From Leeuwenhoekiella blandensis MED217 (GTDB lineage Bacteria; Bacteroidota; Bacteroidia; Flavobacteriales; Flavobacteriaceae), in assembly GCF_000152985.1 (NCBI RefSeq), contig NZ_CH672395.1, positions 2,246,262-2,310,261 on the forward strand: a DNA stretch of 64,000 nucleotides, read 5' to 3'. The notes beneath the pieces were generated by a model, which saw only the letters and a program-made list of their open reading frames with translations, was not told the origin of the DNA and searched no databases. A program made the position numbers and the translations under genes. Positions 9,225 through 9,559 of the stretch are shown here, piece by piece. Each line of letters starts with the position of its first letter. Position 1 is the first letter of the stretch.

Positions 9225-9259
9225 GCATAAAAAACAAAAAGGGGGAAAATCCCCCTTTT
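9225..9259 (-). terminator. Rho-independent terminator
   Basis: A near-perfect hairpin with arms AAAAGGGGGA and TCCCCCTTTT around a 3-nt loop. Read on the minus strand it is followed by TTTTTGTTTTTTA, a strong U-tract. It suits the end of the tilS-to-9654 operon. The plus-strand reading has only TTTTGTTG after the stem. Confidence 0.75.
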
Positions 9260-9362
9260 GTTGCTGATAGAATATAAATACTTTTATCTCGTATTAATCA
9301 ATAAAGATTATTACCGTTTATAATCTAATTATTAGGGGAATTAAATTTTAAACGTATTAATG

Positions 9363-9412
9363 ATTTAGGGGTGAAAGGCACTCTGCGCGAGCAGGGTGTT
9401 TTTCTTTTTTAG
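9363..9412 (+). ncRNA. 50-nt stem-loop element, copy 1 (possible sRNA 3' end or terminator)
   Basis: A conserved leader (ATTTAGGGGTGAAAGG) is followed by an 8-bp stem (9379-9386 with 9391-9398), a GCGA tetraloop of the GNRA type, and a U-tract TTTTTCTTTTTT. It is 48/50 identical to copy 2 at 9510-9559, and the only two differences form one compensatory base pair (C-G here, T-A there). This supports a selected RNA structure. The Rfam Flavo-1 motif is the first known family I would test, but I could not compare it. Confidence 0.6.
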
Positions 9413-9509
9413 ACGGTTTGTAATAAATCGAAAAATTATAAAACGATTTAGTGGAATTTTAACAGAAAGAGTTGCAAATATATTTTGTAAATTTACAATG
9501 TCATTGACA

Positions 9510-9559
9510 ATTTAGGGGTGAAAGGCACTTTGCGCGAGCAAGGTGTTTTTCTTTTTTAG
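9510..9559 (+). ncRNA. 50-nt stem-loop element, copy 2
   Basis: This is the second copy, 147 nt downstream of copy 1 on the same strand. The stem is 9526-9533 paired with 9538-9545, again with a GCGA loop and a TTTTTCTTTTTT tail. The leader is identical to copy 1. No perfect promoter is seen; the preceding 50 nt are very AT-rich (TTGCAAATATATTTTG). It may be an independent small RNA, a tandem terminator, or part of one transcript with copy 1. Confidence 0.6.

Follow-up and report, generated by a model that had tools for sequence, protein, structure and literature searches.

Two nearly identical 50-nt elements lie close together in non-coding DNA of Leeuwenhoekiella blandensis MED217, and they raise the question whether they simply terminate neighbouring genes or belong to small RNAs (sRNAs) with genes of their own. 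The window analysed here is a stretch of 64,000 nt from the complete 4.24-Mb genome; copy 1 occupies positions 9363-9412 and copy 2 positions 9510-9559, both on the plus strand with a spacing of 147 nt. These coordinates and the 48/50 identity of the two copies had been given in an earlier note on this DNA and were correct on re-checking. The same is true of its observation that the sole differences inside the 50-mer form one base pair (9383/9394, C-G in copy 1; 9530/9541, T-A in copy 2) and that a GCGA loop closes the stem in both copies. The pairing of the stem was also confirmed, but its length was not: instead of the 8 bp originally proposed, the fold gives 14 bp, with GAAAGGCACYYUGC pairing with GCARGGUGUUUUUC, because GAAAGG in front of the former stem (9373-9378 in copy 1) pairs with UUUUUC (9399-9404). 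The leader, described earlier as wholly unpaired, therefore contributes GAAAGG to the stem, and only AUUUAGGGGU is left single-stranded, at 9363-9372 in copy 1 and 9510-9519 in copy 2. We refer to this invariant stretch, a putative seed, as the G-box; in the fold it could also form weak G-U pairs with the U-tract. The terminator hairpins, each of 14 bp plus U-tract, span 9373-9410 (loop 9387-9390) and 9520-9557 (loop 9534-9537). The corresponding 60-mers fold at -22.8 and -21.6 kcal/mol, with z-scores of -5.0 and -5.5 (about 5 SD below dinucleotide shuffles), and 0 of 200 shuffles folded as well as either copy. The full leader does not occur again within the window.

We observed the tandem pair at the same locus in 11 of 13 Leeuwenhoekiella genomes, the exceptions being G008 and the incomplete G012. 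Two further genera (genomes G240 and G224) carry tandem pairs near orthologous genes, with the same leader and another stem. TTTAGGGGTGAAAGGCA is identical across all 22 copies in the genus, and TTTAGGGGT is identical in these 22 copies and in both copies of the two other genera. When 14 diverse homologues, drawn from four genera, are aligned, the stem changes but the box UUUrGGGGuGAAA does not. Variation within the genus includes the C-G/U-A exchange noted above and an upper stem that is rewritten in the divergent G007; loops in other species read GUGA, GAAA or GCAA, all of the GNRA type except in the most divergent copies. Stem cells of the 14-homologue alignment are paired in 179 of 179 cases, both partners have changed in 7 of the 14 pairs, and the covariation score of 0.45 compares with 0.18 for shuffled and at most 0.10 for slid alignments, the shuffles never being as good. 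Because of this complete pairing, the double-sided changes and the score above both controls, the covariation is strong evidence, at the level of sequence comparison, for a selected RNA structure. Covarying homologues that keep the leader, which the earlier note had regarded as the support to look for, thus exist. In covariance-model searches, ordinary terminators score similarly. Most of the weak matches across the family lack the leader and are of the type AAAACCACTTTGCGAAAGCAAGGTGGTTTTTT, ordinary terminators of genes; for this reason we relied on leader and promoter instead of score. Exact leader matches in viral contigs and in one MAG have no hairpin and were set aside as chance. At one further site (G254:C1:388839-389413) three matches to the R1 model are spaced by about 265 nt; these are tandem terminators, the first of them a AAACCACTTTGTGAAAACAGGGTGGTTTTTTT terminator-like hairpin without the leader.

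The main sigma factor of flavobacteria is described with the consensus TAnnTTTG at -12 to -5 (PMC9723704). In 10 of 10 genus genomes each copy is preceded, at a constant position, by a box reading TAnnTTTA, so that by resemblance to this consensus each unit has its own predicted promoter. The -7 box of copy 1, TACTTTTA, is located at 9279-9286 and predicts a +1 at 9291, which lies 70 or 73 nt before TTTAGGGG in all ten genomes while the nn bases vary. A TTG at -33 (9258-9260) is found in only some of the species. For copy 2, the -7 box TAAATTTA at 9488-9495 predicts transcription from G9500, exactly 11 nt before TTTAGGGG in 10 of 10 genomes, with TAAA, TAGC, TAGA and TATA variants; a canonical TTG at -33 of this copy is missing. 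Further upstream of copy 2, at about -56 to -48, the element CGATTTAGT (9444-9452) is a possible activator site. CGATTTA[GC]T is retained in 9 of the 10 genus genomes, and the spacer between it and the -7 box varies in sequence at a nearly fixed distance.

The conserved unit exceeds 50 nt: about 72 conserved nt precede copy 1, including a hairpin with GGGG in its loop. The predicted small RNA 1 (9291-9410, plus strand, 120 nt), drawn from folds, alignment and pair counts, would consist of a 5' hairpin, the hairpin with the GGGG loop (9335-9338), the single-stranded G-box and the terminator, and in several species its predicted 5' end is the first base of a hairpin. Its 5' helices are less well supported than the terminator stem, with 94% of cells paired and two pairs with double changes. 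The predicted small RNA 2 (9500-9557, plus strand, 58 nt), based on promoter spacing and fold, would comprise a short 5' leader, the G-box and the terminator.

The earlier note had left the choice between a small RNA and a duplicated regulatory terminator; that pair of alternatives is supported, and promoter spacing together with the change of neighbours favours two sRNA genes. On the opposing reading the elements do no more than terminate neighbouring genes, as intrinsic terminators that have been duplicated, and have no RNA function. Their 3' halves are indeed good intrinsic terminators, and many flavobacterial genes end in similar hairpins. Neither the invariant TTTAGGGGT box nor the fixed -7 boxes would be needed by a terminator, however, and a separate terminator-like hairpin, a GC-rich inverted repeat with a T-run (AAAAAGGGGGAAAATCCCCCTTTT, 9236-9259, plus strand), already stands upstream and would insulate the pair. 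Comparison of 12 related loci showed a similar hairpin at a similar distance upstream in 7, which include loci from two other genera. No plus-strand gene reads into the elements within the window, and the downstream genes seen are convergent. Among species the gene upstream is variously amylase, YifB, a 928-aa plus-strand gene or another, and the pair persists. We consider a terminator-only origin improbable, and the termination of a neighbouring gene is excluded as the main explanation because the pair has its own upstream hairpin, the upstream genes change and the downstream genes are convergent. The varying upstream neighbours argue for autonomous sRNA genes in place of gene terminators, and sRNA genes are preferred over bare terminators since the -7 boxes are fixed and the pair survives changes of the upstream gene. 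The analysis thus favours each element being the 3' end, that is, a putative seed box plus an intrinsic terminator, of a predicted small RNA. The 3' terminator of each unit is a covarying 14-bp hairpin with a U-tract, as expected of an sRNA gene. A short peptide is a far more remote alternative. GTG AAA GGC and the following codons read VKGTLREQGVFLF in both copies, the two differences are synonymous, and by eye the frame is open and the differing bases are silent in many copies of the genus. Nevertheless, homologous stems vary in length by 2 and 3 nt yet pair perfectly, an in-frame stop falls within the loop of G240 (VKGILA*), and the frame would have to cross the terminator. We rejected peptide coding because length changes and an in-frame stop break the frame; with pairing retained throughout, the units are taken as non-coding.

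The genome has two more sRNA-like units in which the same box precedes a terminator, one near an asparaginase gene and one near a superoxide dismutase (SOD) gene. The former, hereafter the third unit, lies 3' of the asparaginase gene (G000:C1:3778992-3779036, L134, plus strand), contains UUUGGGGUGAAA and has its own TAnnTTTG box, and shares with the window pair a core of GGGGTGAAAG, hairpin and TTTCTTT. All 13 genomes of the genus keep it, even the ones that lack the pair, as do G240 and G224. Across genomes the approximately 45 nt before its hairpin are nearly unchanged while the stem is rewritten, and a TAnnTTTG-like box is found at a similar place upstream in nearly all of them. G230 and G397 have one such unit. 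Using these types to build a model (R2) led to further types with the order ATAAGTAGGTT, hairpin, TTTGGGG and terminator. One of these is adjacent to asparaginase and is by synteny orthologous to the third unit, its orthologues in other genera beginning with ATAAGTAGGTTGA. The other lies between a gene for a glutamine-amidotransferase-domain protein and the gene for an Fe/Mn superoxide dismutase; it is nearly invariant, often tandem, and present in 2-5 copies per genome in many Flavobacteriaceae. The Leeuwenhoekiella genome has one copy of this SOD-adjacent type, CCATAACATAAGTAGGTTAAGTTCATGGTAGATTTGGGG plus terminator, on the minus strand (G000:C1:17234-17265; L190:8235-8266).

A search for the class motif ATAAGTAGGTTN{12,42}TTTGGGG gave matches in 299 of the 397 genomes of Flavobacteriaceae, or 185 of the 237 genera. 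Two to five copies are common, many of them in arrays with a spacing of about 200 nt; a single match was seen in the reversed control. In a phylum-wide sample the exact motif was matched in six genomes, all of them Flavobacteriaceae. Across the order, the core model recovered outside Flavobacteriaceae only matches that, judged by eye, resemble ordinary terminators. The window pair has the features by which we define the G-box sRNA class, namely a -7 box, UUUrGGGG, an intrinsic terminator and occurrence in several genera. From the sequences it is likely that the pair belongs to this wider class as paralogues. We go no further than likely because a shared design and a short core are all that joins them, and it speaks against a common class that RNAs of different loci share only that core. 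A broader proposal is that most Flavobacteriaceae possess a family-wide sRNA system of up to three loci (SOD, asparaginase and window), uncatalogued in Rfam, that has been amplified in tandem repeatedly, varies hardly at all in its core and would act as a core regulator through the GGGG box. We hold this tentatively and rate it at somewhat below even odds. Rfam 15 yielded 0 matches in the window at the gathering cut-off. Among 13 related loci, including class representatives, none of the matches with E up to 0.05 was relevant. PyrR and BTnc231 matches at about 20-24 bits were discarded as far below cut-off, and other Bacteroides sRNA models gave only weak sub-threshold matches. The earlier note had named Flavo-1 as a possible relative; its model gave no match at gathering score, nor at E up to 10. 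Our literature searches found no description of the element. The pair and the wider class are probably an uncatalogued group of sRNAs.

How might such RNAs act? Our best explanation, to which we assign a probability of about 0.6, is that each of the two elements forms the 3' half of one of two adjacent, independently transcribed sRNA genes (predicted 9291-9410 and 9500-9557), which belong to the wider G-box class and regulate mRNAs by base pairing. The alignments establish the conservation, covariation, promoter spacing and synteny of the pair, and we infer from sequence that both units are transcribed. Each RNA would begin at its own sigma-A-type -7 box and end at its covarying intrinsic terminator, exposing AUUUAGGGGU just 5' of the terminator and running into GAAAGG. 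The G-box would then pair with C-rich sites in mRNA 5' untranslated regions, as sibling sRNAs do, and the two copies may serve dosage or separate control. The G-box is presumed to be the active part because it is invariant beside a rewritten stem. We also considered whether AGGGGUGA pairs with the 3' end of 16S and dropped the idea, since the duplex requires a bulge and the GGGGC types do not retain it.

The RNAs could instead bind a protein through repeated GGGG, in the linker and in the loop of RNA 1, and titrate it in the manner of CsrB/RsmZ-type RNAs. RNA 1 exposes GGGG twice, a GGGGG-loop hairpin was seen by eye upstream of the first G240 copy, and the sites occur in multiple tandem copies across the family. 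Moreover, the commonest type has a core that hardly varies across many genera, which exceeds the need of a short seed. RNA 2 has only a single GGGG, which counts against such titration, and we regard this mode of action as unlikely. As a best guess, base pairing is ranked first and protein binding second.

For the preferred base-pairing mode, near-complements of the leader are only mildly commoner than in the reversed control (about 61 versus 39 matches). Several of them were rejected as lying within coding sequence or in gene-distal stretches. A candidate target site, CCTTTCACCCCTATA, is located in the 5' untranslated region of a gene for a 175-aa protein of no known family (L241:494-509 and orthologous loci), 28-29 nt before the ATG. 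It occurs in four species whose flanking sequences have diverged. Its complementarity to the G-box RNA is perfect over 13 nt, and a fifth species carries one further change. Within the genus, the genomes with a close orthologue of the 175-aa gene are precisely the ten that carry the standard pair, while G007, G008 and G012 have distant or no relatives. We treat the site as a lead only, because five other genomes contain pair and gene but not the site.

Characterised sRNAs are few in Flavobacteriia, which to our knowledge lack Hfq. The G-box class, present in about three quarters of the sampled Flavobacteriaceae and a candidate new Rfam family, combines covarying terminators and tandem copies with a short box that does not vary and with start sites that can be predicted; being compact and testable, it might serve as a way into RNA regulation in a family of ecological importance. 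NgncR_162/163 of Neisseria and LhrC1-5 of Listeria are reportedly known regulators present as near-identical paralogous copies within one genome; the window pair resembles them in its paralogous copies, although the species are unrelated and the window RNAs are predictions from sequence. Flavo-1 is likewise an RNA motif widespread in Flavobacteriaceae, but its model does not match the window. FopS and GibS are paralogous sRNAs of Bacteroides thetaiotaomicron, FopS being about 65-70 nt (PMC11697453, PMC7366714). As described there, they resemble the predicted RNAs in being short paralogous sRNAs of Bacteroidota with canonical primary-sigma-type promoters and a conserved seed (PMC11697453). FopS/GibS are characterised by an R1/R1' seed at the 5' end and by RbpB binding, and FopS is reported with 14 members per genome, whereas the window pair has its box before the terminator and tandem genes. 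The Rfp sRNAs of Flavobacterium psychrophilum are reported as independent sRNAs, some conserved beyond the species, and among them Rfp18, described with at least three stem-loops, affects metalloprotease mRNAs (PMC9723704). The predicted RNAs of the window would likewise be independent sRNAs of flavobacteria, a likeness drawn from the description of the Rfp sRNAs. The nearest well-studied system is FopS/GibS by function, and by taxonomy the nearest are the Rfp sRNAs.
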